A stretch of DNA of 33,858 bases from Candidatus Faecousia faecigallinarum (GTDB taxonomy: Bacteria > Bacillota > Clostridia > Oscillospirales > Oscillospiraceae): the NCBI GenBank assembly GCA_018712145.1, contig DVHJ01000025.1, forward strand, positions 1-33,858. The letters run 5' to 3'. Below, piece after piece: positions 716 to 33,559 of this stretch. Each line of letters starts with the position of its first letter. Within the stretch, counting starts at the first letter, position 1. Position numbers and translations under genes: made by a program. The notes under the pieces are model-generated. The model saw nothing but the letters and a program-made list of their open reading frames with translations, ran no database searches and was not told where the DNA came from.

Positions 716-738
716 TTAACAAGGCGGCGGCGTTTTTT
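709..738 (+). terminator. Plus-direction terminator overlapping a minus-strand stop codon
   Basis: CGCCGCCTT (709-717) pairs perfectly with AAGGCGGCG (721-729) around a 3-nt loop. A run of six T follows on the plus strand (733-738). It would stop plus-strand transcription coming out of the repeat region. It lies inside the last codons of the minus-strand flavoprotein gene, whose stop is at 716-718. Confidence 0.6.
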
Positions 739-1795
739 CCTCCGGGATCAGCAGGGTATCCAGGATTTGGCCGGCCCAGCGGGACAGCCGGGCTTCCATC
801 CCCGGCGAGGCCATGGCCTCTCCAGGGTCGTTGGCCGTCTGGAACAGGCAGAACCGGGGGGGCAGCATCATGGTTTTGTTCAGGCACAGAGCCCCCAGCA
901 CCTGCCGGGCCACAATGTCCCCGCCGGAATAGCCGGAGACCACAATGGCATACAGGTACTTGTCATACAGGGTGCTTTGCAGCAGCAAACTGGTCATGCG
1001 GTTGATCAGGGCCATGATGTTGGCGCTCACCGAATCGTTATAGTTGGGGCACAGCAGCAAAATCCCGTCGCTGGCCAGGATGGCGGGGAACACCTCCGTG
1101 GGCAGGGCGCCGCCGTAGTAGCAGGTGCCGCTTTTGGAGTAGTGCAGGCAGGCGGTGTAGGAGCAGCCCCGGCAGTCATAGATCGCCCCGTTTTGCAGGC
1201 TGATGGTGGACAGGTTGCAGCGGGCCGACAGCCGTTGGCAGACGGCGCTGCCCATGGCCACGGTGTTGGACCGGCGGTTATCCGAGGCGTGGAGCATCAG
1301 CAGGTTGGGCCGGGAAAACCTGGGGGGCTGAAATTCCGCCAACCGGTCTGCCAGCGCCCTGGCTTGGCGGAAATAGGCCTCCTCCGGGGAGCAATTCATC
1401 CGCTCTGCGGAAACCCGGTGGTTGTGGAGAGAACCGGTGCCCTCCACCAGGGGTTTGCCGGGAAACAGGCATCCGGTCAGGTTGGCCGCCAGGCAAATGG
1501 CCTGGGCCGCTTGCTTGGTGTACAGTTCCCCGGCGCCGTCAACAATGATGCTCCCGATGGCCCCTGCCAGAGCGGCGGTGGTTTGGCGAAGGGTCCGCAG
1601 CATGCCCAGGGTATCCGGGCCCATGCCCCCAAGATCCACCGCCAGGGCAAACAGCACCCGCTTGCCGGCCAAATTCCCCCCGGACAATTCCGCCGGACCG
1701 GCGGAGAACACCCGGCGCCCTGCCAGGGCAAAGGCCAGCAGCCGCTCCAGCCGGGGGCTGCTCTCGGTTTTCAGCAGGTAAATTGGTTCACCCAT
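716..1795 (-). CDS. NADPH-dependent FMN reductase-like flavoprotein
   Basis: A 359-residue protein. Residues about 163-345 look like the flavodoxin-fold NADPH-dependent FMN reductase / iron-sulfur flavoprotein family: LLMLHASDNRRSN (phosphate loop position), a cysteine cluster C208-x2-C211-x4-C216-x8-C225, then ASDGILLLCPNYNDSVSANI and VVSGYSGGD. The cysteine spacing resembles, but does not match exactly, that of iron-sulfur flavoproteins, so cluster binding is only possible. Residues about 45-125 look like a second, degenerate flavodoxin-like half. The start at 1795 is chosen because its ATG overlaps the stop of the upstream gene by 8 bp, indicating translational coupling. It is the third gene of an operon with a dehydrogenase-like protein and a large multidomain protein. 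The substrate is unknown; an electron-transfer or reductase role is inferred. Confidence 0.75.
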   Translation of the reverse strand: MGEPIYLLKTESSPRLERLLAFALAGRRVFSAGPAELSGGNLAGKRVLFALAVDLGGMGPDTLGMLRTLRQTTAALAGAIGSIIVDGAGELYTKQAAQAICLAANLTGCLFPGKPLVEGTGSLHNHRVSAERMNCSPEEAYFRQARALADRLAEFQPPRFSRPNLLMLHASDNRRSNTVAMGSAVCQRLSARCNLSTISLQNGAIYDCRGCSYTACLHYSKSGTCYYGGALPTEVFPAILASDGILLLCPNYNDSVSANIMALINRMTSLLLQSTLYDKYLYAIVVSGYSGGDIVARQVLGALCLNKTMMLPPRFCLFQTANDPGEAMASPGMEARLSRWAGQILDTLLIPEEKTPPPC

Positions 1796-3005
1796 GGGCA
1801 AACCCCTGCAATTCCCGGAGGGCGGTGTCCAGCCGCTGCTGCAGCCCGGGGGCCAGGGCTTCCCGGACGGCGGCGGGACCAAGGGGGGTCATGGTGTTCA
1901 GGCAGCCGAAGTAGGCGCCCCCCAGGGGCACGGCCCCATAGTGGGGCAGGCCCCGGATCAGGCGGAGGATGGAGACGGCGGCGGAGGACAGGCCCGGGGC
2001 GATATAGGGCTTAAAGCCCAGGGCCCGCACTTCCAGGTTCATCTCCCGGGTGCGGGCGGTGAGGCGGCGGGAAATCTCCCCGTCATACCCCGCCAGGGGC
2101 GCATTGGCCACCACCAGCCCCGCCCCGTGGGGGCCATAGACCCGGAGCGGGGCGGTGGGCAGTCCTTCTTCCCCGGCGGCATACGCTGCCCGGGCCGCCA
2201 TCACCCCCAGGCCAAAGCCCTGAATTTGCTCCGGCGCCAGGCCCCGGAAGTCCAGTTTCCCCGTTTCATCCCGGTTGCTTTCCAGAAACACGCTCCGGCA
2301 CAGGTGATCCACCGGATCGGAAATCTGACAAAACAGGCCGGAAAACCCGGCGTTTCTGGCCATCCGGGCGTAGGTTTTCAGCATCTGCCGGTTGGCCTCG
2401 TACTGGGCCATCCGCACATCGCCCCCAGCCCCCAGGGGCGGCACCCCCCGGGAAGCGGTGAAGAGGAATAAATCGCAGTCAAACAGCTCCCCCTGGGGGC
2501 AGACGGCGACCTGGGGCAGGGGCTTATCCTCCAGGGAAAGCACCTGGTTGAGCTCCAGGGCATACCGTTGGCACAGGGCCTGGTTGGGGTCGTAAATCCG
2601 GATTTCGGACAGTTCCGTGCCCAGAAGCTTCAGCCCGGTGAGCACTGTCCCCCCCACATCCCCCAGGCCCACCAGGGTGACCCGGAACTTCTCCGGCGGC
2701 GGGGCCTGGAAGCGGTCCAGGTAAGACCAGCACCGGGGAAACCCGGTGTTCAGCACACCGGCGCCGTTGGCCCGGATAAACCGGGCCAGGGAACTGCCGC
2801 CGCCGTCGCCGGTGGGCAGCAGGGCGGCAATGGACTCCTGGCCCACCTGCTCCAGGCTGTCCACCGGGTACAGGCAGCGGCTGGTCAGGGGGTCCCGGTT
2901 TTGCAGCAGGATCAGGGGGGCAAAGGGACCCTCCACCGGCCGGGCCCGGCCGGGGAAATCCCCGCTGCCCGCCAGGCAGTAGGGGCCGAATCGTTTATAG
3001 ACCAT
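1788..3005 (-). CDS. Malate/lactate dehydrogenase-like NAD-binding protein
   Basis: A 405-residue protein with an extra N-terminal region of about 105 residues. A Rossmann domain follows: VTLVGLGDVGG at 109-119 is the dinucleotide loop and IYDPN (D139) the likely ribose-binding acid. Further on are QISDPVD (227-233), matching the PVD segment of malate/lactate dehydrogenases, and YGPHG (290-294), matching the catalytic-histidine GEHG motif with H293 kept. Overall similarity to true malate or lactate dehydrogenases is low and the protein is longer than their usual 310-330 residues, so the substrate is uncertain. Its start overlaps the stop of the preceding gene by 11 bp and its stop overlaps the next start by 8 bp, so it is the middle gene of a translationally coupled operon. 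A redox enzyme or NAD(H)-binding sensor would both fit. Confidence 0.75.
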   Translation of the reverse strand: MVYKRFGPYCLAGSGDFPGRARPVEGPFAPLILLQNRDPLTSRCLYPVDSLEQVGQESIAALLPTGDGGGSSLARFIRANGAGVLNTGFPRCWSYLDRFQAPPPEKFRVTLVGLGDVGGTVLTGLKLLGTELSEIRIYDPNQALCQRYALELNQVLSLEDKPLPQVAVCPQGELFDCDLFLFTASRGVPPLGAGGDVRMAQYEANRQMLKTYARMARNAGFSGLFCQISDPVDHLCRSVFLESNRDETGKLDFRGLAPEQIQGFGLGVMAARAAYAAGEEGLPTAPLRVYGPHGAGLVVANAPLAGYDGEISRRLTARTREMNLEVRALGFKPYIAPGLSSAAVSILRLIRGLPHYGAVPLGGAYFGCLNTMTPLGPAAVREALAPGLQQRLDTALRELQGFAHG

Positions 3006-6000
3006 GGATTACCTCCGACATGGAAATCCGCTGCAGCTGGGTCAGGTCGTCCGACACGTAGCTGGAGGCGGGAACGGTGAAATCGTACTGCAAGTGCCGC
3101 CCCCGGTCAGGCAGGCGGGGCCGGAACAGGGCCTCCGGCAGGCGCTCCAAGGTGAGGTTGGTGGAGAAGGCGGCCAGGTGCCGCCGCTCCAGGGCCAGGA
3201 GAATGTCCCGGGCGTTTTCCAAGGCGGCCAAGGACAGGCGCAGCCTGGCGCTGCCGTCTGCCCCGGGGATAAAGGTGGGGTTGACGTAGGGCAGCACCAG
3301 ATTGATGGAGGGGCGGTTCCAGCCCAGCTCCTCCGGCCGGTCCATGCTGTCGCCCCCCAGGAAGGGGTAGAGGCCGCTTTCCGTCAGCCAGTGGTTCAGG
3401 TTGGGGATAAAGTATTCGCATTCCACATGACGGCCCTGGGTCTGCATCAGATCCTGGCCGTGGCCGGAGATCAGGCCAACCACCAGGCTGCGGATTTCCA
3501 CATGCTCCTCTTTAAAGATATGATCCATGGCGTGGATACGATGCCCGTTGTGGAGCAGATCGTCCACCAGAATCACCGGCCGGCGGAAAGACTTGATGGT
3601 GCGCACCTGGCCGGACAGGGAGGAATACCCGGGGGCCTCCAGAATCCGGAAATCCGACATGTCCGCCTGGTATACCTTGTCGGCGTGGAGGGTTTTGGTG
3701 ACGGTGTTGGGCACCACCTCGTCGGAGAGGATTTTGCCGTAGGGCACGCACATGTATGGCCCCAGCTGCCGGACGCCCGGCGGCACATGGTCCACCTGAT
3801 TCAGGCGCTGCACCTTCCGGGACAGGCTTTGGTTCAGGGTTTCCGCGTCAAAGCTCAGCAGGAGCCGGCCGGGGAACAGGGCGGCCAAGGCGCCGCGGAG
3901 CTTCAGCCGGGTTTGCTCCACCGCCCGGCCCACCGCCTTGTCGCTGCGCAGGGGTTCTTTGATCCACAAAAACACGTCCTGCACCAGCACCATCGGCGAG
4001 CGCATGTCCACCGACAGCAGGTCCGGCTGGCCGGGAATGGGCAGGAAGCCCAGCTGCAGCAGCTCGCCGTACAGCTCCCCGGCGCCGCTGCACCGGCACA
4101 AAGCATAGGTGTGATCCGTCTCCAAACTCCGGGCCAGCAGTTCGTTGACCAGCTGCCGGCGGACCCCCAGGTCGGCGTGGGAGACGCAGGACACGTGATC
4201 CACCATCATGATTTTGCCGGAGGTGTGCCGCCGGACATAGGCGGCGGCGTCCCGGGAGCCCAGGGTTTCCAGCAGCCGGGAGCTGGTGACGGTGTGGCCG
4301 CAGACCCAGCCCAGGGGTTCCTGGGCGGAGTGGGCCGAGAGGAAAATCCCCAGGCCCTCCGGCTCCCGGCGGAGAAAATCCTGGAGCAGCGGGGGCAGCT
4401 TTGGGGTATCCGGGGTTGCCCGGGAGAAGTACAGGTCCCCGGGCTTGAGCTCGTTTTTGAACTGGGGGGACCGGAGATACAGGCCCCGCTCGTAGATAAA
4501 CGCCTGGACAATGGGGTCCACCAGCATGGAGATATCCATGTCCTTGTCCACGTATTCCCGAATCCGGGTGGAGCTGACCCCCTCGCACCAGGCCGGCAGG
4601 GACATGACCTTCCACTTGCCCCGGAGAATCTTGTCCAGATGGCCGGTTTTGCTGCCGGCCCGGCGGAAGATCACGTGGTTGTAGTCCCGGGCCGAGCCGG
4701 GCGCCTCGGTGCGGTAGGCGGAGGCGCCTTCGATCACATCGCTGCCGGCGGCCAGGTACAGCTCCCGGCCGGGGAACATGGCCGCCAGGGCGGCCAAGTC
4801 CTCCGGGCAGGCGATATTCACCGGGCAGTTGTCCGGGAAGAGGTACACATCCCACAAATCGGCGGTGGAAATGGCGGCAATTTTCCGGCGCAGCAGCTTG
4901 GGGATGGTCCGTTTGCTCCAGGAGAATTCGTCGATGGCCAGATACACTTCAAACCCCAGGGCGTGAATGTCCCGGACGATTTGCTTGTGCCCGGCGGAGA
5001 AGGGGTCAAAGGTGCCGGGGAAGAAGGCCACCGGCCGGGGCGGGGGGAAACGCAGCCGGTCGCCGCTGACCTCGCAGGAGACAATCAGCCGGTACAGGTG
5101 GTTGAGCATGGCGGCATGGTTGTAAAAGGTCAGCTGATCCTTGGTGGGCTCGGACAGCAGGCACAGCAGCTTTTTCCCGGTGCGCACCAGGCAATCCCGG
5201 CGAACGGCCTGGGCAATGTTGGGATTGCCGAATATCCCCCGGCACAGGACCGACAGGGCGGTTTGATGAATCACCGGCTCATAGTGGGCAACGCCGGTGA
5301 GCAGCAGGCCCAGCACCCGGTCAAACACCGCCGCCCGGGCGCAGCACTGCTCGGTCATCATGGCCCCCAGGGTGTGCAGGGCGGCGTTGGCCGCCCGCAG
5401 GGAGCCGGAGCTGCCTGCGTGGATCAGATCGTCCAGATAGTCCACCCCCTCGGCCAGCTCCTTGTCCGGCATCTGGCACAGCAGCCGGCCCAGGAAGGGG
5501 GGAATGTAGTAGGAGATCTGCTCCTGGCCGGTTTCCAGCTCCCGGGTCAGGTCAACCAGAATTTCATTTTTCTGATCTACCGTCAGGTATTGGGTCAGCT
5601 GCAGCAGCACATACCCGGCGTATTCCCGGACGGTGAGATGTTCGCTGACGGACAGCAGGTTGGACAGGTGCATGGCGGTGTGAAACGCCCCGGCGGGATC
5701 AGCCCGCACCTGGTCCCAGAGAAAGTCGATCTGCACCAGCTTTACCGTCCAGGGCACCACGTTTTTCAAATTGCTGAGGAACAGCTCCCCGGCCCTGGCC
5801 TGGGGCAGGGGGTCATGTCCCCCAAAGAAGCGGTTTAAGATCCGGGTTTTGGCATAGCTGACGGCGAAGGAGTCCCCCGGGTCCAGCCGGCGCAAGGCTT
5901 CGGCCATGCCGGCGCCAATTGCCGGGTCCTGCTCCATGAGCCGGGACAGGCAGCGGATCACCGTTAAGCGCAGGGGAATATCCGGCTGGGCCAGGCAGCG

Positions 6001-7719
6001 GCCCAGGCACCGGGCCAGCTCCGGCCGGTCCTCCGGCAAAATGGCCTGGGCGGGCACATAGGCCAGGGCGCTGGCCAGCGCCTCCCAGTGGCTGCTTTCC
6101 CCGGACTTCAGCAGCCGGAGCAGGGGCCGGGCCATCACCTGGGCGTCGTAGGCCGAGCATACGGAAAACAGGCTCTCCGCGATCCCCTTCAGGCTGTTGG
6201 AGATTCGCTGGGCATGCTTGGCGGAAATCTTCCGGTCCGGGTACAGGCACAGGCGGATCTGCTCTTCCCACAGCCGCTCCGCTTCGGCAAAATACCCCAT
6301 CAGGGTGGGGGCATAGGCGGTGGCCGGAGCGTCGGCAGGCAGCTCTTTGCGGTAAGACGGCCCGCTGTTGGCCAAAATCTGGCCCATGATTTTGGCCGCC
6401 CGGCGGCGGATATCCCCTTCCCGGTGCATCAGCAGCTCATACAGGAAAGACAGGGTCATGCCCTTGCTGTGCTTGGGCATGTAGCTGTTGTACTCCTCAA
6501 ACAGCAGCAGGTACGTGCGGATCCGCTGGAGGTTTTTCTCGCTTCTGGCCTGCTCCAGGAGCTGCTCAAAAGAGGCGTCGGTGCTGAATGTGTCCATCAG
6601 CCGGAGACTGTTGTCAAAGGTGAGATGGCGCAGGCCGGTAATGGACCCCTTCTCGCTACACAAAGCCGGCCGGAAGGGGGCCACCGGCTGCAACCGGGTG
6701 ACCTCCATCCGGGGACAAACCCCCCGGGCGGACAAGAAGCTTTCAAAATCCCGGAGCTTGGCATACACCGTGGCATAGCGCCGCTGCTTTTCCGGGGTGA
6801 CGTCCGCCAGCTTGGACAGGATGATGGCATAGGAATCCGCCAGGGAATAGATTTTGGTGGTTTCCTTCCCGTCCGGGCCACGGGTACCCCGGACGCGGAA
6901 ATCGGCGTAGATCAGCAGCAGGGACTCCACCGGCAGGTTTTCAAACTCCAGATCCCAGGTGGAGTGGTTGGCGGCCACGTGGGCGATGTGGGGCAGCTCC
7001 CGCTCCGCCAGGTACTGCCAGGTAAAATAGTAGTGCAGGTACGGCGTCCGGGGGGCGGATTTTCCCCGGCAGCCAAATTTTCCGATGTCGTGGCTCAGGG
7101 AGGCGGCGCTCACCAGGGGGATATCCACGCTCAGCCCCGCCAGCTTGGCCAGCCGTGCCCCGTGGACCGCCACATTATTCACCCCGATGGTGTGGCTGGC
7201 CGGGTCAAAGGGCATACATTCCCGGCCAATGCGCAGCAGGGCGGGGAAGTGGTCCCGCCGGACGGCTTTCTGGAAGTTCAGGTACTCCTGCCGGATCCGG
7301 CTGTCCTCCAGCTCCTGGCCGGTGGCCCAGTGGGGGTCCAGCAGGGGATCGAAGGGGCAGTTTTCCCCCTCCTGATCCAGCAGCCACTCCAGCACCTGGA
7401 GGTAGAAGGCCATGGCCCGCTCCTGGGCCTGGGTGGCGGGGGGCCGGTTGGGGTCGGGGAACAAAACCGCGGCCAGGGTGTCATAAATAAAGCGCAGCCA
7501 CCCTTCCTGGGGTTCCGGACAGAGCCGCTGCAAAATCGGGGCACAGGCCTGGACCGCCTGGGCGCAGCCGGTGCGCTGCCCCTGGAAGGCCGCCAGACCG
7601 TCGGAAAACCGGTTGGCGTGGAGCAGCTGGGCAAAGCCCCGCCGGCTCAGGCCCAAGTACCGGGAAAAGGAAACGCAGAGGTTGTCCACCAGCGGGGACG
7701 GATCAAAACGGGCGCCCAT
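2995..7719 (-). CDS. Giant multidomain protein: HD, helical repeats, NadD-like, GNAT-like, PRTase-like
   Basis: A 1574-residue protein that I recognise only by its parts. Residues about 180-310 are an HD phosphohydrolase-like domain (H186, then SLSHDIGKFG with H210-D211). About 380-880 is helical and resembles HEAT/ARM repeats. About 896-1075 is a NadD-type nucleotidyltransferase: FPGTFDPFSAGH at 900-911 has SxGH in place of HxGH, and the C-terminal GVSSTRIREYV and FIYERGLY match the family. About 1090-1240 resembles a GNAT acyltransferase. About 1310-1440 looks like a type I phosphoribosyltransferase, with VILVDDLLHNGHR (1382-1394) at the PRPP loop but without its usual Ser/Thr. About 1460-1574 is unassigned. 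The start is set by AAGGAGG at 7727-7733 and by the promoter just upstream; longer frames run into repeat DNA. It is first in an operon with two redox-type proteins. Nucleotide or cofactor chemistry is inferred. Confidence 0.85.
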   Translation of the reverse strand: MGARFDPSPLVDNLCVSFSRYLGLSRRGFAQLLHANRFSDGLAAFQGQRTGCAQAVQACAPILQRLCPEPQEGWLRFIYDTLAAVLFPDPNRPPATQAQERAMAFYLQVLEWLLDQEGENCPFDPLLDPHWATGQELEDSRIRQEYLNFQKAVRRDHFPALLRIGRECMPFDPASHTIGVNNVAVHGARLAKLAGLSVDIPLVSAASLSHDIGKFGCRGKSAPRTPYLHYYFTWQYLAERELPHIAHVAANHSTWDLEFENLPVESLLLIYADFRVRGTRGPDGKETTKIYSLADSYAIILSKLADVTPEKQRRYATVYAKLRDFESFLSARGVCPRMEVTRLQPVAPFRPALCSEKGSITGLRHLTFDNSLRLMDTFSTDASFEQLLEQARSEKNLQRIRTYLLLFEEYNSYMPKHSKGMTLSFLYELLMHREGDIRRRAAKIMGQILANSGPSYRKELPADAPATAYAPTLMGYFAEAERLWEEQIRLCLYPDRKISAKHAQRISNSLKGIAESLFSVCSAYDAQVMARPLLRLLKSGESSHWEALASALAYVPAQAILPEDRPELARCLGRCLAQPDIPLRLTVIRCLSRLMEQDPAIGAGMAEALRRLDPGDSFAVSYAKTRILNRFFGGHDPLPQARAGELFLSNLKNVVPWTVKLVQIDFLWDQVRADPAGAFHTAMHLSNLLSVSEHLTVREYAGYVLLQLTQYLTVDQKNEILVDLTRELETGQEQISYYIPPFLGRLLCQMPDKELAEGVDYLDDLIHAGSSGSLRAANAALHTLGAMMTEQCCARAAVFDRVLGLLLTGVAHYEPVIHQTALSVLCRGIFGNPNIAQAVRRDCLVRTGKKLLCLLSEPTKDQLTFYNHAAMLNHLYRLIVSCEVSGDRLRFPPPRPVAFFPGTFDPFSAGHKQIVRDIHALGFEVYLAIDEFSWSKRTIPKLLRRKIAAISTADLWDVYLFPDNCPVNIACPEDLAALAAMFPGRELYLAAGSDVIEGASAYRTEAPGSARDYNHVIFRRAGSKTGHLDKILRGKWKVMSLPAWCEGVSSTRIREYVDKDMDISMLVDPIVQAFIYERGLYLRSPQFKNELKPGDLYFSRATPDTPKLPPLLQDFLRREPEGLGIFLSAHSAQEPLGWVCGHTVTSSRLLETLGSRDAAAYVRRHTSGKIMMVDHVSCVSHADLGVRRQLVNELLARSLETDHTYALCRCSGAGELYGELLQLGFLPIPGQPDLLSVDMRSPMVLVQDVFLWIKEPLRSDKAVGRAVEQTRLKLRGALAALFPGRLLLSFDAETLNQSLSRKVQRLNQVDHVPPGVRQLGPYMCVPYGKILSDEVVPNTVTKTLHADKVYQADMSDFRILEAPGYSSLSGQVRTIKSFRRPVILVDDLLHNGHRIHAMDHIFKEEHVEIRSLVVGLISGHGQDLMQTQGRHVECEYFIPNLNHWLTESGLYPFLGGDSMDRPEELGWNRPSINLVLPYVNPTFIPGADGSARLRLSLAALENARDILLALERRHLAAFSTNLTLERLPEALFRPRLPDRGRHLQYDFTVPASSYVSDDLTQLQRISMSEVIHGL

Positions 7720-7752: not shown

Positions 7753-7781
7753 ATTATCGCCGAGAAACCGGCGAAAGTCAA
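7753..7781 (-). promoter_or_regulatory. Sigma-A promoter of the 2995-7719 operon, with a dyad in the spacer
   Basis: On the minus strand TTGACT (7781-7776), a 17-nt spacer and GATAAT (7758-7753) form a near-consensus promoter. Transcription should begin near 7746, leaving a leader of about 27 nt before the ATG at 7719. The spacer holds a short dyad, CGCCG-N6-CGGCG (7758-7773), that could be an operator; that part is inference. Confidence 0.75.
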
Positions 7782-7840: not shown

Positions 7841-7951
7841 CTTGGGCGAATTCGTAGCATTTTTTCGTATTCGCCCAAAGTACTGCTTTCTGCGATGTTG
7901 TACTGCAAGGAGAACGGATTGCCACGTCGCTACGCTCCTCGCAATGACATG
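7841..7951. repeat. Half MITE-like element
   Basis: The right half of the composite element, starting at the core hairpin (TTGGGCGAAT near 7842 pairs with ATTCGCCCAA near 7869) and ending CAATGACATG at 7942-7951. The terminal hairpin is the GTCGCTACGCTCCTC version. It is nearly identical in sequence to the right half of the complete copy at 8071-8257. About 110 bp of 45-bp-type units in both orientations link the two. Confidence 0.85.
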
Positions 7952-8257: not shown

Positions 8258-8373
8258 CTGAAGGAAAACCGTTTCTGCGGTTGCAAGAACGTAGTTCGCA
8301 ACGGCATGCAGAGACTTGCCGGGTGCCTGCGCTTACCACTGCGCCTTCCCGGGTCCGGTTTCCTTTGGTTTTG

Positions 8374-8402
8374 TTGACTTTCGGTGGGTTATGGCATATA
8401 AT
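8374..8402 (+). promoter_or_regulatory. Sigma-A promoter of the topoisomerase operon
   Basis: TTGACT at 8374-8379, a 17-nt spacer and a perfect TATAAT at 8397-8402. The predicted start of transcription near 8409 excludes an ATG at 8401 and supports translation from 8436. Confidence 0.85.
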
Positions 8403-8435
8403 GAACACAAATTACCAACCGGCAATGGGGGAACT

Positions 8436-10412
8436 ATGGCAAGAAAAAAAGCGTATGACAATACCTCAATCTCTATGCTGAAAGAGGAAGAGCGGGTCCG
8501 TAAGCGTCCCGCTGTTATTTTCGGTTCCGACGACCTGGAGGGCTGCAAGCATGCGGTGTTTGAGATTCTGTCCAACGCCATTGACGAGGCCCGGGAGGGC
8601 TATGGCGACCTGATTACCGTCACCCGGTATGCGGATCTGTCGGTGGATGTGGAGGACTTCGGCCGGGGCTGTCCGGTGGATTGGAACGAGAAGGAGCAGC
8701 GGTATAACTGGGAGCTGGTGTTCTGCGAGATGTACGCCGGGGGAAAATACGACGCCGGGGGAGAAAATTACGAGTATTCCCTGGGCCTCAACGGCCTGGG
8801 CTCCTGCGCCACCCAATATGCTTCGGAGTACTTTGACGCCGTCATCCGCCGGGACGGCTACACCTATACCCTCCATTTTGAGAAGGGGAAGAACATTGGC
8901 GGCCTGCACAAGGCCCCTGCCGACCGGAAAAAAACCGGCTCCTATTTCCGGTGGCGGCCGGACCGGGAGGTGTTCACCGACATTGACATCCCGGCGGAGT
9001 ACTACCGGGATGTGATCCGCCGCCAGGCGGTGGTGAATCCCGGGGTGCGGTTCCGGTTCCGCAACCAGGTGGACGGGAAATTCCAGGTGGAGGAGTTTTG
9101 CTATGAACGGGGCATTGTCCAGTATTTGGAGGAGCTGACCGGGGACGACGCGTTTACCATGCCCGCCTATTTTGAGGCGGAGCGCCGGGGCCGGGACAGC
9201 GAGAACCGGCCGGAGATGAAGCTGAAAATTACCGCCGCGTTCTGCTTTTCCAAGAAAATCAGCCATATCGAGTATTACCACAACTCCTCCTGGCTGGAGC
9301 ACGGCGGCGCGCCGGAAAAGGCGGCCCGCTCCGGCTTCGTGGCGGCTTTTGACAAATACATCCGGGACACCGGGAAGTATGCCAAAAATGAGAGTAAGCT
9401 CACCTTCCAGGATATCCAGGACTCCCTGGTGCTGGTGACCAACTGCTTTTCCACCATTGCCAGCTTTGAAAACCAGACGAAAAAATCGGTGAACAGCAAA
9501 TTTATCCAGGAAGCCATGACCGCCTTTTTCCGGGAGAATCTCCAGGTCTGGTTCTTGGAAAACAAGGCGGAGGCCGACCGGGCGGTGGAGCAGATCCTGG
9601 TGAACAAGCACAGCCGGGAATCGGCGGAAAAGGCCAAGCTCACCATGAAAAAGAAGCTGTCCGGCGCCATGGACATCAGCAACCGGGTGCAGAAGTTTGT
9701 GGACTGCCGGAGCCGGGACGCGGCAAAGCGGGAGCTGTATATTGTGGAGGGCGACTCGGCCCTGGGCTCGGTCAAGCTGTCCCGGGACGCGGAATTTCAG
9801 GGCATTATGCCCATCCGGGGCAAAATCCTAAACTGCCTGAAGGCGGACTACAGCCGGATTTTCAAAAGCGAGATCATCACCGACCTGGTGAAGGTGATCG
9901 GCTGCGGGGTGGAGGTCACCGGCAAGCGGGGCAAGGACCTGACCGCCTTTGACTTGGGCAGCCTGCGGTGGAACAAGGTGGTCATTTGTACCGACGCCGA
10001 CGAAGACGGCTTCCAGATCCGCACCCTGGTGCTGACCATGCTCTACCGGCTCATGCCCACCCTGATCCAGGGGGGATATGTGTATATTGCCGAATCCCCC
10101 TTGTTTGAAATTATCTACAAGGACAAGACCTGGTTTGCCTACAACGAAGGGGAGAAGGCCAAAATTCTCAAGGAATTGGCGGGGAAAAAGCCCACCATCA
10201 ACCGCTCCAAGGGCCTGGGGGAAAACGACCCGGAAATGATGTGGATGACTACCATGAACCCGGAAACCCGGCGGCTGATCAAGGTGATGCCGGAAGACGC
10301 CCAGCGGACGGCCTACTATTTTGACATGCTGCTGGGCAACGGCCTGGCGGCCCGGAAGGATTTTATCGCGGAAAACGGCCAGCGGTATCTGGACCTGGCG
10401 GATCTGTCCTAA
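8436..10412 (+). CDS. parE: Type IIA DNA topoisomerase subunit B (ParE/GyrB family, divergent)
   Basis: A 658-residue ATPase and TOPRIM subunit that works with the A subunit encoded next to pass one DNA duplex through another. The GHKL ATPase region has SNAIDEA (46-52), DFGRGCP (74-80) and GLNGLGS (117-123, normally GGLHGVG). The TOPRIM metal site is EGDSALGS (438-445, normally EGDSAGGS) and DADEDG (520-525). RSKGLGE (590-596) matches the family's RYKGLGE. Several near-invariant positions are changed, so this is a divergent paralogue rather than the canonical GyrB; the symbol is by family and pairing only. The ATG at 8436 follows GGGGGA at 8427-8432 and a consensus promoter. The A-subunit gene begins 14 nt after the stop. 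Confidence 0.88.
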   Translation: MARKKAYDNTSISMLKEEERVRKRPAVIFGSDDLEGCKHAVFEILSNAIDEAREGYGDLITVTRYADLSVDVEDFGRGCPVDWNEKEQRYNWELVFCEMYAGGKYDAGGENYEYSLGLNGLGSCATQYASEYFDAVIRRDGYTYTLHFEKGKNIGGLHKAPADRKKTGSYFRWRPDREVFTDIDIPAEYYRDVIRRQAVVNPGVRFRFRNQVDGKFQVEEFCYERGIVQYLEELTGDDAFTMPAYFEAERRGRDSENRPEMKLKITAAFCFSKKISHIEYYHNSSWLEHGGAPEKAARSGFVAAFDKYIRDTGKYAKNESKLTFQDIQDSLVLVTNCFSTIASFENQTKKSVNSKFIQEAMTAFFRENLQVWFLENKAEADRAVEQILVNKHSRESAEKAKLTMKKKLSGAMDISNRVQKFVDCRSRDAAKRELYIVEGDSALGSVKLSRDAEFQGIMPIRGKILNCLKADYSRIFKSEIITDLVKVIGCGVEVTGKRGKDLTAFDLGSLRWNKVVICTDADEDGFQIRTLVLTMLYRLMPTLIQGGYVYIAESPLFEIIYKDKTWFAYNEGEKAKILKELAGKKPTINRSKGLGENDPEMMWMTTMNPETRRLIKVMPEDAQRTAYYFDMLLGNGLAARKDFIAENGQRYLDLADLS

Positions 10413-10426
10413 CAGGGAGGTAAGCA

Positions 10427-12655
10427 ATGGCGAAAAAGAAAAAAGACCAGCAGGTGGTTGGCCTCCGGGGCACGGTGCAGGAGCAGCCCATCACCGAAAC
10501 CCTGGAGCTGAACTACATGCCCTATGCCATGAGCGTCATTGTCTCCCGGGCCATTCCGGAGATTGACGGCTTCAAGCCCTCCCACCGGAAGCTGCTGTAC
10601 ACCATGTACAAAATGGGCCTGCTCACCGGCGGCAGGACGAAATCCGCCAATATTGTGGGCCAGACCATGCGGCTCAACCCCCACGGCGACGCGGCCATTT
10701 ACGACACCATGGTGCGGCTGTCCCGGGGCTACGGGGCGCTGCTGCACCCCTTCGTGGACTCCAAGGGCAACTTCGGCAAGGTCTACTCCCGGGACATGGC
10801 CTATGCCGCCGCCCGGTATACCGAGGCCAAGCTGGACGGCATCTGCGCCGAGCTGTTCCGGGACATGGACTACAACACCGTGGATATGGTGGACAATTAC
10901 GACGGCACCATGGAAGAGCCGGTGCTGCTGCCCACCACCTTTCCCAACGTGCTGGTCTCGGCCAACACCGGCATTGCCGTGGGCATGGCCAGCAACATCT
11001 GCGGCTTTAACCTGGCGGAGGTGTGCCGGGCCGCCATCGCCAGAATCCAGAATCCGGACAGCGACCCGTTGGCGGTCATGCCCGCCCCGGATTTCCCCAC
11101 CGGCGGGGAGCTGCTCTATGACCCGGCGGAAATGGGGGCCATCTACCAAACCGGCCGGGGCAGCTTCCGCCTGCGGGCAAAGTGGCGGTATGTGAAAGCG
11201 GGCAACCTGATTGAAATCGGCCAGATTCCCTACACCACCACCGTGGAGGCCATTATGGACAAGGTGGCGGAGTTGATCCGGGCAGGGAAAATCCGGGAAA
11301 TCGGGGACATGCGGGATGAAACGGACCTGTCCGGTCTGAAGCTCACCATCGACTTAAAGCGGGGGGTGGACCCGGAGAAGCTGATGGCCAAGCTCTTCCG
11401 CCTGACCCCCCTCCAGGACACCTACCCCTGCAATTTCAACATTCTCATTGCCGGCATGCCCAAGGTGATGGGGGTGGGGGAGATCCTGGATGAGTGGATC
11501 GCCTGGCGGCAGCAGTGCGTCAAGCGGCGGGTGTTTTACCGGCTGGGCAAGAAGCGGGACAAGCTCCACCTGCTCCGGGGCCTGGAGCGGATTTTGCTGG
11601 ACATCGACAAGGCCATCGCCATTATCCGCCAGACCGAGCTGGAGGCGGATGTGGTGCCCAACCTGATGATTGGCTTCGGCATCGACCAAATCCAGGCGGA
11701 GTTTGTGGCGGAGATCAAGCTGAGAAACATCAACAAGGAATATATCTTGAAACGCACCGCCGAAACCGGGGCGCTGGAGAAGGAGATCCGGCAGCTGGAG
11801 GCCACCTTAAACAGCCCCCGGCGGATCAAAACCCTGATTGTGGGGGAACTGGAGCAGGTGATCAAGGGCTACGGCCAGCCCCGGAAAACGGAACTGGTGT
11901 ACCAGTGGGACGACGCCGCGGCGGAGGAGGAAGAGGCCCCGCCGGACTACCCGGTGACGGTGTTTGTCTCCCGGGAGGGGTACTTCAAAAAAATCACCCC
12001 CCAGTCCCTCCGGTCTTCCGGGGAGCAGAAGTTTAAAGACGGGGACAGTCTTGCTTTCTCCCGGCAGGTGACCAACCAGGCGGAGCTATTGGCCTTTACC
12101 GACAAATTCCAGTGCTACAAAGCCCGGGTATCGGACTTTGCCGGCGGCAAAGCCGCCCAATTGGGGGATTACCTGCCCACCAAGCTGGGCTTTGACCCGG
12201 GGGAAACCCTGCTGCAGGTGGTGCTGCCCGGGGATTACGGCGGCTTTGTCCTGTTCTGCTTTGAAAACGGCAAGGTGGCCAAGGTGCCCCTGTCCGCTTA
12301 CGGCACCAAATCCAACCGGAAGAAGCTCACCGGCGCTTTTTCGGACAAGTGTCCGGTGCGCACCATCCTGGCCATGGCGGAAGACGGCCAGGTGGCGGCC
12401 TATTCCAGCGACGGCCGGGCCATGATTTTCTCCACCGCCCAGCTGACCCCCAAAGCCACCCGCACCACCCAGGGCGTGGCGGTGCTCACCCTGCGGAAGA
12501 AGGCCGCCTTAGACCGGGTGGTGCCGGTGGAGGAGAGCGGCATTGTCCAAACCGCCCGGTATAAGGGGCGGAGCCTGCCGGCGGCGGGGGCAATCCTGCG
12601 GCCGGAGGATGTGGCCCAGATGACCCTGGCCCTGGACGGAGAGGAACCGCAATAA
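10427..12655 (+). CDS. parC: Type IIA DNA topoisomerase subunit A (ParC/GyrA family)
   Basis: A 742-residue DNA breakage-rejoining subunit. The N-terminal region has NYMPYAMSVIVSRAIPEIDG (29-48), typical of GyrA/ParC, and the active-site pair R130-Y131 in AAARYTEAKL, where Tyr131 should form the covalent link to DNA. A long coiled-coil region follows (about 370-480). The C-terminal third contains blade-like repeats such as VFVSREGYFKKI and VAAYSSDGRAMIF, expected of the DNA-wrapping beta-pinwheel. A GyrA-box is not obvious, which favours ParC over GyrA. The RBS is GGGAGG at 10415-10420. It is cotranscribed with the B subunit upstream and probably with the YitT gene 30 nt downstream. Whether the complex supercoils, relaxes or decatenates cannot be read from sequence. 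Confidence 0.88.
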   Translation: MAKKKKDQQVVGLRGTVQEQPITETLELNYMPYAMSVIVSRAIPEIDGFKPSHRKLLYTMYKMGLLTGGRTKSANIVGQTMRLNPHGDAAIYDTMVRLSRGYGALLHPFVDSKGNFGKVYSRDMAYAAARYTEAKLDGICAELFRDMDYNTVDMVDNYDGTMEEPVLLPTTFPNVLVSANTGIAVGMASNICGFNLAEVCRAAIARIQNPDSDPLAVMPAPDFPTGGELLYDPAEMGAIYQTGRGSFRLRAKWRYVKAGNLIEIGQIPYTTTVEAIMDKVAELIRAGKIREIGDMRDETDLSGLKLTIDLKRGVDPEKLMAKLFRLTPLQDTYPCNFNILIAGMPKVMGVGEILDEWIAWRQQCVKRRVFYRLGKKRDKLHLLRGLERILLDIDKAIAIIRQTELEADVVPNLMIGFGIDQIQAEFVAEIKLRNINKEYILKRTAETGALEKEIRQLEATLNSPRRIKTLIVGELEQVIKGYGQPRKTELVYQWDDAAAEEEEAPPDYPVTVFVSREGYFKKITPQSLRSSGEQKFKDGDSLAFSRQVTNQAELLAFTDKFQCYKARVSDFAGGKAAQLGDYLPTKLGFDPGETLLQVVLPGDYGGFVLFCFENGKVAKVPLSAYGTKSNRKKLTGAFSDKCPVRTILAMAEDGQVAAYSSDGRAMIFSTAQLTPKATRTTQGVAVLTLRKKAALDRVVPVEESGIVQTARYKGRSLPAAGAILRPEDVAQMTLALDGEEPQ

Positions 12656-30895: not shown

Positions 30896-32068
30896 TTAGG
30901 GCAAACCGCCGTCCCGGCGCACCTGGCGCAGGGGCAGGCCCGTCTGCCGGGCAATCCGGGCCAGGTCCTCATACTCCGCCTTGGCATTCTCTCCGGCCAC
31001 CTTTACCGCCACCGGCCCCCAGGGGGTTTCGGCGGTTTCCTGCCGGCGGGGCAGGGTCACCCGCCTCAGCTCCGCCTGGCGGATGCCCAGGGTAGTGGTG
31101 TGGCGGAACATGGCCTGGGTGAGGGCGGGGCCGTCTTCCGGACGGCACAGGCAGGTAAGCAGTACCCCGGGCCGGTTCTTCTTCATCCCCACGGCGGTGG
31201 TGTACACCTCCAGGGCGCCGGCCTGCCACAGCTGCTCCTGGGCAAACCCAATCTCCTCCGGGGTCATGTCGTCTAAATTGCAGGACAGGCTCAGCACCCG
31301 GTTCCCGGTTCTCACCGCCGGGCCCAGGATTGCCCGGACGCAGTTGGCCGCCGGGAAATCCTTGCTGCCCATGCCGTAGCTCACCGCCTGAACCGCCATG
31401 CAGGGCTGGGAGCCGAAGCCGCCGACAAAGTGCCTCAGCAGGGCCGCACCGGTGGGGGTACACAGCTCGCCCTGGATTTCCCCGCCGTAGGTGGGGATGC
31501 CCTCAAGGAGCAGGACCGTGGCCGGCGCCGGCACCGGCAAAATGCCATGGGCGCAGCGCACCCGGCCGCTGCCCACGTGTACCGGGGAAGCGTACACCTC
31601 CCCCGGGGCAAGGGTGTGCATCAGCAGGCACACGGCGGTGACGTCCGCCACCGCATCCATGGTGCCCACCTCGTGGAAGTGGATCTCCTCCACCGGCACA
31701 CCGTGCACCTGACTCTCCGCCTGGGCCAGGGCGCCGTACACCGCCAGCACATCCCGGGCCACCGCCTCCGGCAGGGTCAGGCGATCCTTCACCAGGTGGC
31801 CGATGGCGGCCAGGCTGCCGCCGGGATGGTCATGGGGGTGATCATGATGGTGGTCATGGGGATGGCCTTCTGCCTGTCCATGGACGGCAACGGCCAGATG
31901 CAGGCCGGCAATGCCGCATTTCACCGATTTTTCCAAAGTGAACTGCACCCCCGGCAGTCCCAGGCCGTTGAGTTTTTCCACAAAGCCGGCAGGGTCCGGC
32001 AGAAGGCCCAGCAGGGCCGCCGCCAGCATATCCCCGGCGGCCCCCATGGACAGATCAAGATAAAGCAT
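30896..32068 (-). CDS. larC: Nickel-pincer cofactor nickel insertase LarC
   Basis: A 390-residue enzyme that inserts nickel into pyridinium-3,5-bisthiocarboxylic acid mononucleotide, the last step in making the nickel-pincer nucleotide cofactor. The N-terminus [20 protein letters not shown] is typical. A histidine-rich loop, [17 protein letters not shown] (about 68-84), is a likely nickel-binding stretch. [14 protein letters not shown] follows at about 129-142, and [14 protein letters not shown] near 265-278. In some lactobacilli LarC requires a ribosomal frameshift; here it is one uninterrupted frame. ATG 32068 is preceded by GGAGG and lies 14 bp inside the end of larB, so the genes are coupled. 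The rrf2 gene follows 22 nt after the stop. Confidence 0.93.
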
Positions 32069-32822
32069 GCTTTGCCTCCATATGGTTAATTTGGCTGGCC
32101 AGGTAGCCTGCGCCGAAGCCGTTGTCAATGTTCACCACGCAAATGCCGCTGGCACAGGAATTGAGCATGGACAGCAGGGCCGACAGGCCGTGGAAGGAAG
32201 CGCCATAGCCCACGCTGGTGGGCACGGCAATCACCGGGCAATCCGCCAGGCCCCCCACCACACTGGCTAAGGCCCCCTCCATCCCGGCGATGGCAATGAT
32301 CACCGAGGCGTCCATCACGTATTCCAGGTTGGCCAGCAGCCGGTGGACCCCGGCCACCCCCACGTCATACAGCCGGGTCACCTGGTTGCCCAGGGCCTGG
32401 GCGGTAACGGCGGCTTCCTCCGCCACCGGCACGTCGCTGGTGCCCCCGGTGGCGATGACAATGGTGCCCAGTCCGTCCGGCTCAGGCAGGGGGCCGATGG
32501 TGGCAATCCGGCCCAGGGAGTGGTAGGTCAGGGGATGGGTTTTCTCCACCTGTGCCGCCGCCTCCGGGGACAGGCGGGTGATGAGAATGGTCTGTTGTCC
32601 GGCCTCCCGCATGGCCGAGACAATGCCGGTGATCTGCTCCGGGGTTTTGCCCCCGCCGTAGATCACCTCCGGCACCCCCTGGCGCAGCCGCCGGTGGTGG
32701 TCCACCTTGGCATAGCCCAGGTCCTGGAAGGGCTCCAGTTTCAGCTGGAGCATGGCCTGCTCCACCGGCAGGGTGCCGGCCTGCACCTGCTGCAAAATTT
32801 CTTTGGTTCTCCGGTCGCTCAT
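32055..32822 (-). CDS. larB: Nickel-pincer cofactor biosynthesis protein LarB
   Basis: A 255-residue enzyme that carboxylates and hydrolyses nicotinic acid adenine dinucleotide to pyridinium-3,5-biscarboxylic acid mononucleotide, the first step of the pathway. The C-terminal half has the PurE-like fold: [17 protein letters not shown] (about 121-137), [13 protein letters not shown] (151-163) and [20 protein letters not shown] (197-216). [15 protein letters not shown] near the end is characteristic of LarB. Its start overlaps the stop of larE (ATGA) and its end overlaps larC by 14 bp, so the three are made together. Confidence 0.94.
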
Positions 32823-33559
32823 GGTCTAGCCTCCAAGTCTAGGAGTATTTCGGTGTAATGGGGGGCCAGGCAGGTCAGGATTTCCGCCCGCCGGGCCAGG
32901 GCCATGGGCATCTGCTCCGCCTTCAGCTGGAGCTTTGCCCGGCCGTCTAAATACCGGACCCGGAAGTCCCGGAAGCCCATGGCGGACAAGGCAGCCTCCG
33001 CCTTTTGGGTCTTGTCCAACAAAGCCGGGGTGATGGGGGTACCGGTGGGAATCCGGGTGGCCAGGCAGGCATAGGCCGGCTTATCCCAGGTGAACAGGCC
33101 CGCCGCCTGGGACAGGCGGCGAATTTCCCCCTTGGTCAGGCCGCACAACCGCAAGGGGGACAGCACCCCCAGCTCCTGCAAGGCCCGGTAACCGGGGCGG
33201 CCCGCAATGTCGTCAGAGGCGTTGGTGCCGTCAATCAGGCAGGCGCCGGGTCCGGCAGCCTGGGCGATGGCGGAAAAGATCACCTTCTTGCAGTGATAGC
33301 ACCGGTCGGGAGGGTTCTCCGCCACCTGGGGCAGGGCCAAGGGATCGGCCTGCAAAATTTGGCACTCCGCCCCCAGGCGTTGGGCCAGCCGGAGGGCGTC
33401 CTGCAACTCAAAATCCGGCTGGAAGGGGGAATGGACCACATAGGCCCCCACCGCCGCCCCGGCCTGGATGGCGGCATACAGCAGGTAAGCCGAGTCCACG
33501 CCTCCGGAAAATCCCAGGGCAACCTGCCGGTGGGTTTGAAAAAATTGGGTAAGGGTCAT
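32819..33559 (-). CDS. larE: ATP-dependent sulfur-transfer protein LarE
   Basis: A 246-residue PP-loop enzyme that adenylates and thiolates the pincer precursor made by LarB. The ATP loop is SGGVDS (18-23). Three cysteines stand out: C87 and C90 in DRCYHCKK, and C165 in [12 protein letters not shown]. The last matches the sulfur-donor cysteine of the Lactiplantibacillus enzyme. Having all three fits the [4Fe-4S]-dependent class described for Thermotoga maritima, in which the cluster carries the sulfur and the protein is not consumed. This class assignment is by residue pattern. ATG 33559 follows GGAGGAT. It heads the larE-larB-larC-rrf2-tcdA operon. The racemase gene larA is not in this window. 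Confidence 0.93.

Follow-up and report, generated by a model that had tools for sequence, protein, structure and literature searches.

The adenylyltransferase NadD and the HD hydrolase YqeK form a single chain in a minimal mycoplasma (JCVISYN3A_0380) and are fused or adjacent in Firmicutes as well (PMC9426524, PMC8177086). In the mycoplasma, the YqeK domain is reported to hydrolyse aberrant dinucleotides produced by NadD (PMC9426524). A nucleotidyltransferase and an HD domain are also combined in the regulator GlnD. Here, we describe a gene of Candidatus Faecousia faecigallinarum, designated gene A, which encodes a multidomain protein of 1574 amino acids (2995..7719, minus strand) and for which the NadD–YqeK fusion is the nearest precedent. 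It was analysed within a stretch of 33,858 nucleotides (contig DVHJ01000025.1, the window); all coordinates refer to the window and to its minus strand unless marked otherwise. The gene A family is a real, conserved and new combination of known folds, and no published description of the protein was found in a literature search confined to open-licence papers.

Both the NadD–YqeK fusion and gene A carry a NadD-type adenylyltransferase and a six-ligand HD domain in one chain. The fusion consists of two domains with NadD first and comprises about 400 amino acids in relatives of the window, whereas in gene A the HD domain comes first, a HEAT solenoid of ~540 residues lies in between and GNAT and phosphoribosyltransferase (PRTase) domains are added. 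Moreover, neither gene A domain scores as a NadD or YqeK equivalog, and the host possesses its own pair of these proteins. The likeness to GlnD, i.e. opposed activities in one chain, is one of analogy only; gene A has a different transferase fold and no ACT domains. Gene A heads an operon with two further genes, B and C. We propose that its product is an integrated enzyme that makes and breaks a nucleotide, and we assign this reading a probability of roughly 0.4.

Two AlphaFold models of gene A, each built from 67–70 relatives, were confident (predicted local distance difference test, pLDDT, 90.4 and 88.7; predicted template modelling score, pTM, 0.89 each) and were searched against the PDB with Foldseek. 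Five folds were confirmed in one chain: HD by Pfam and its motif, and HEAT/ARM, NadD-type, GNAT and a domain like xanthine phosphoribosyltransferase (XPRT) by the models. This agrees with the original prediction, made from the letters of the window, which had named HD, helical-repeat, NadD-like, GNAT-like and PRTase-like domains; segment by segment, the predicted folds matched these names. With the window protein alone, Pfam reported CTP_transf_like (E 0.00014) and, apart from this, only weak matches to HD and HEAT. The order of the domains was the same in every relative seen, and no split versions of the architecture were seen above the threshold used (E 1e-20). Residue conservation was determined from an alignment of 78 gene A members, in which mean pairwise identity was 0.61 for the NadD-type, 0.56 for the HD and 0.54 for the PRTase-like domain, 0.41 for the HEAT region and 0.29 for both the GNAT-like domain and the N-terminal region. 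The latter (residues 1–139; 7303..7719) is helical in the model and poorly conserved.

The NadD-type nucleotidylyltransferase domain (residues 893–1084; 4468..5043) was recognized by Pfam as CTP_transf_like in 70/70 members. The C-terminal model matched NadD in the PDB (E 1.5e-8, TMt 0.76–0.78), and hhalign gave a full-length match to NadD of relatives (98.5%, E 3.7e-15). The HxGH-type signature, FPGTFDPFSAGH (residues 900–911; 4987..5022), occurs as [ST]x[GS]H in the family (S/T908, G/S910 and H911), H911 being present in 78/78 members. The ATP-binding ISSTxIR motif appears as SSTRIR (4558..4575; family form SST[RQK]IR) within GVSSTRIREYV (1047–1057). All residues of the transferase core (H911, K936, R944, R945, G992, D994, Y1002, S1049, S1050 and R1054) are conserved in 78/78 members, Y1002 being the aromatic residue in the position of the NadD tryptophan.

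The full-length match and this aromatic residue, together with the proofreading precedent of NadD–YqeK, would fit a second enzyme of nicotinamide adenine dinucleotide (NAD) synthesis or repair, which forms nicotinic acid adenine dinucleotide (NaAD) or NAD from the corresponding mononucleotides, NaMN or NMN, under special conditions while the HD domain proofreads. We consider this quite improbable. Canonical NadD and YqeK are encoded in the same genome, and the equivalog cut-off for NadD (TIGR00482, 112.45 bits) was far from being reached by the window protein (26.4 bits) or by the member at locus L055 (49 bits). In addition, the SWSK...RR and GSD...ASxY features of the gene A domain differ from NadD, and the PRTase-like, HEAT and GNAT parts would be left unexplained. 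The genome also encodes a separate XPRT, and the presence of separate genes for NadD, YqeK and XPRT indicates that gene A does not serve housekeeping NAD synthesis. Gene A as the housekeeping NadD or CoaD was likewise rejected, as the genome has its own NadD, plus another weak match at C79.

The HD domain (residues 140–345; 6685..7302) carries the ligands H176, H210, D211, H229, H252 and D273, each of which is invariant in 78/78 members. Pfam HD matched 27 of 28 members at E ≤ 0.5 (best E 2.9e-6); the window member alone scored 20.4 bits, under the 22-bit cut-off. The set of six residues, H...HD...H...H...D, is diagnostic of a dinuclear metal centre (PMC8177086), and judging from this pattern a dinuclear metal site is probable in gene A. 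Thus, neither the HD nor the NadD-type domain has lost its key residues in any of the 78 members. A transferase and a dinuclear-type HD domain, both with intact sites and placed in one chain, are most simply explained by a pyrophosphate-linked product whose synthesis and breakdown are controlled together.

In the make-and-break enzyme that we propose, ATP would donate the adenosine monophosphate (AMP) that the NadD-type domain attaches to a small acceptor carrying a phosphate. This acceptor is most likely an aromatic mononucleotide, so that the product would be adenylylated and resemble a dinucleotide. The same product, or wrong versions of it, would be hydrolysed by the HD domain at its probable dinuclear metal site. 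Between the two lies the HEAT/ARM-type helical solenoid (residues 346–885; 5065..6684; pLDDT 90.4, pTM 0.89), whose top Foldseek matches are HEAT/ARM proteins; it might separate the hydrolase from the transferase block, or dock partners.

The type I PRTase-like domain (residues 1239–1480; 3280..4005) matched XPRT by Foldseek of the C-terminal model (E 2e-5) and by hhalign over the half that contains the loop for phosphoribosyl pyrophosphate (PRPP) (83%, E 8.7e-6; controls 0.1–0.4%). With xanthine phosphoribosyltransferase (Xpt) and PurR-type effector domains it shares the type I fold and a DD-x-L-x-x-G loop. Its PRPP loop, DDLLHNGHR (3538..3564), which is part of VILVDDLLHNGHR (1382–1394), has the family form DDLLHxGxR and is nearest to DDFLANG of XPRT. 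Unlike Xpt, gene A shows HxGxR in the rest of this loop, the E-x-S-G pyrophosphate loop is unrecognisable and a long C-terminal extension is present. The original prediction was therefore right about the fold and about the position of the PRPP loop, whereas the loop itself is not the canonical TTGxT form, from which XPRT with its DDFLANG deviates as well. D1386, H1390, G1392 and R1394 are each kept in 77/78 members and D1387 in 75 (Glu in two more), so that the acidic pair is retained, and the exchange of TTGxT for HxGxR is not the result of random decay. With HxGxR in this place, the domain may bind PRPP but not convert it. A search of the own genome with the XPRT family TIGR01744 matched solely a different gene, on C32. 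In the make-and-break enzyme, the XPRT-like domain would make, hold or sense a phosphoribosyl ligand ahead of adenylylation.

A catalytic loop that is altered and yet conserved at DD, H, G and R might also point to a metabolic sensor, in which the effector, PRPP or guanosine penta- or tetraphosphate, (p)ppGpp, is bound by the XPRT-like domain. This domain would then switch the opposed activities of the NadD-type and HD domains, by which a signal nucleotide controlling B and C is formed and destroyed. The XPRT fold is known to bind ppGpp and PRPP, and the Foldseek matches include 6w1i, an XPRT–ppGpp entry. In combining two opposed nucleotide activities with a scaffold, the chain is similar to signalling enzymes, and Firmicute PurR provides a precedent for a PRTase domain that binds PRPP or ppGpp as effector without enzymatic activity (PMC8789054). 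On the other hand, gene A contains neither a DNA-binding nor a receiver domain, no conserved transcription regulator was found among the neighbours in 80 named loci, and the tight partners B and C are enzyme folds rather than regulators. A mainly sensory role is thus possible but doubtful.

The GNAT-like domain (residues 1090–1238; 4006..4452) shares its overall fold with GNAT acetyltransferases, TacT3 and AtaT being the nearest structures (E 5e-5 to 1.5e-4; TacT3, E 5e-5, TMt 0.53). Here, the original prediction holds for the fold, but the domain is degenerate and among the least conserved parts of the protein. Only three of its 149 columns are near-invariant, and no conserved acetyl-CoA loop motif, R/Q-x-x-G-x-G/A, was present in the alignment, and an active GNAT was rejected on this account. 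Unlike TacT and AtaT, gene A lacks this pyrophosphate-loop motif as well as an antitoxin-like conserved neighbour, and there is no sign of a toxin. The domain could be structural or a relic.

Several observations weigh against a make-and-break enzyme. The similarity of the HD domain to YqeK at the profile level was no better than that of a control: in hhalign, YqeK (COG1713) reached 17% compared with 53% for an unrelated control domain, so that an assignment as YqeK specifically was rejected. Likewise, gene A was not matched when its genome was searched with TIGR00488 (YqeK). The NadD-type fold could be reused for a different acceptor. The PRTase may be inactive, as its PRPP loop is devoid of the usual threonine-rich contacts to the 5′-phosphate and its pyrophosphate loop is unlike that of XPRT. 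Furthermore, B and C are missing at nine gene A loci (L059, L061, L068, L069, L078, L087, L191, L195 and L203), and the genomes of two of these (L191 and L195) hold another gene A in addition; the redox partners are thus not obligatory. Finally, we infer the substrates and activity of gene A and the direction of its chemistry, and its link to B and C is a genomic one. The original proposal, in which a nucleotide-like molecule is made, charged and degraded by a single chain, is plausible and partly supported; it has to be corrected for the altered PRTase loop, the degenerate GNAT domain and an HD domain that is not specifically YqeK.

Genes A, B and C form a conserved three-gene operon headed by gene A. 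Gene B (1788..3005) overlaps the 3′ end of gene A by 11 bases and encodes a 405-amino-acid protein of the lactate/malate dehydrogenase fold with an N-terminal extension (Pfam Ldh_1_N; profile match to 2-hydroxyacid/lactate dehydrogenases of the PDB, E 4e-6). In an alignment by eye at the sequence level, the lactate dehydrogenase-like arginines (R198, R272) and histidine (H293) are retained, while Asp replaces the Asn of NPVD and Met the catalytic Asp. Gene C (716..1795) encodes a flavodoxin-like protein of 359 amino acids (Pfam FMN_red, 3e-12 to 4e-21), whose four invariant cysteines in the alignment, C-x2-C-x4-C-x8-C, suggest an iron–sulphur site. Its flavodoxin-like domain is preceded by an N-terminal region of ~160 residues with a conserved AGCxFPGKPLVEGTGSLxN. 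Among loci with room to see these genes, gene B directly follows gene A in 103 of 113 and gene C is present in 91 of 103, both on the strand of gene A. No further conserved partner was found by single-linkage clustering in the 80 named loci, where no other neighbour occurred in more than 11 loci. The two linked downstream redox-type genes had been overlooked in the original prediction, which also left the strand unstated.

The adenylylated product of gene A would probably serve, or report on, the NAD-binding dehydrogenase-fold protein B and the flavodoxin-like protein C. In a stronger form of this proposal, the operon would be a dedicated assembly line for an undescribed NAD-like dinucleotide cofactor or signal, in which a base and PRPP are joined to a mononucleotide by the XPRT-like domain, adenylylated by the NadD-type domain, hydrolysed in a controlled manner by the HD domain and used by B and C. 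We regard this stronger form as unlikely.

In two clostridial lineages that are distant from each other, the operon is adjoined by genes for asparagine synthetase (AsnB; 12/94 loci) and type III glutamine synthetase (GSIII; 9/94). The asparagine synthetase loci are L016, L017, L021, L029, L035, L037, L040 and L044 as well as L071–L073, L084 and L085, often with GSIII. Being confined to two lineages, AsnB and GSIII were ruled out as general operon partners, and nothing but their position hints at a connection with nitrogen. This position would be in line with gene A acting as a protein-modifying pair like GlnD/GlnE, in which the nucleotidyltransferase attaches AMP to a partner protein, the HD domain takes it off again and the HEAT region docks the target, be it B, C or glutamine synthetase. 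The large docking solenoid and the logic of an HD domain joined to a nucleotidyltransferase suit this idea. However, NadD-type enzymes are known to adenylylate phosphates and not protein hydroxyls, the fold of GlnD/GlnE is unrelated and neither AsnB nor GSIII lies beside the operon in 40 other loci from whole genomes, which makes such a role very unlikely.

On the same contig, a cluster at 30896–33559 contains LarC (PF01969, E 7e-131) and two genes that, by eye, we take to be LarE and LarB, all like those for nickel-pincer cofactor synthesis. NaAD, a product of NadD, is the known substrate of LarB. LarC was present in 19/26 gene A carriers and in 156/367 non-carriers (Fisher p 0.004, kinship ignored). 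A required link was ruled out by the seven carriers without LarC.

A search for the full-length architecture recovered gene A in 2/37 genomes of the same genus, 9/394 of the order, 26/393 of the class and 8/398 of a phylum sample, each count including the window's own genome. The same-genus relative was 53% identical across residues 18–1574, and loci of named assemblies reached up to 79% identity to the window protein. A pattern scan that covered 84,980 species genomes confirmed at least 559 gene A relatives. Full-length gene A is found in several clostridial families with a patchy distribution, carriers including Oscillibacter, Anaerotignum, Anaerovorax, Clostridium sp. ASF356 and a Blautia candidate. 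In hundreds of anaerobe genomes, a single chain hence keeps two intact sites of nucleotide chemistry together with a third, modified one; if gene A indeed makes and breaks a nucleotide, this would suggest that gut Clostridia possess a nucleotide-type cofactor or signal not known so far. Single residues that offer handles on this proposal are H911, H210/D211 and H1390/R1394. A viral or plasmid origin was rejected: no gene A match was found in the viral contigs searched or in phages, and the lone 'plasmid' match fell in an Acetoanaerobium noterae record of 2.6 Mb, in which no genes are annotated at that place.

The reading frame of gene A runs from an ATG at 7719, with a good ribosome-binding site, AAGGAGG, a short way upstream, to a stop codon at 2995–2997, which bears out the 1574-residue open frame first noticed here, and the motifs quoted for it, including HD at 210–211, were all found at the residues given. 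Full-length homologues with 32–79% identity are present in many genomes and place the frame far beyond chance; a gene on the plus strand was ruled out, the frame there being interrupted by stops. An Rfam search gave no matches. Upstream of the start codon, a consensus scan picked up a sigma-70-like candidate promoter, TTGACT-17-GATAAT (7753..7781, match 10/12), and slightly further upstream lies a repeat-like sequence, GCGAGGAGCGTAGCGACGTGGCAATC (7917–7942, minus strand), of which the genome holds just two exact copies. Divergent from gene A, a type IIA topoisomerase pair, GyrB/ParE-type followed by GyrA/ParC-type, occupies 8316–12655 on the plus strand.

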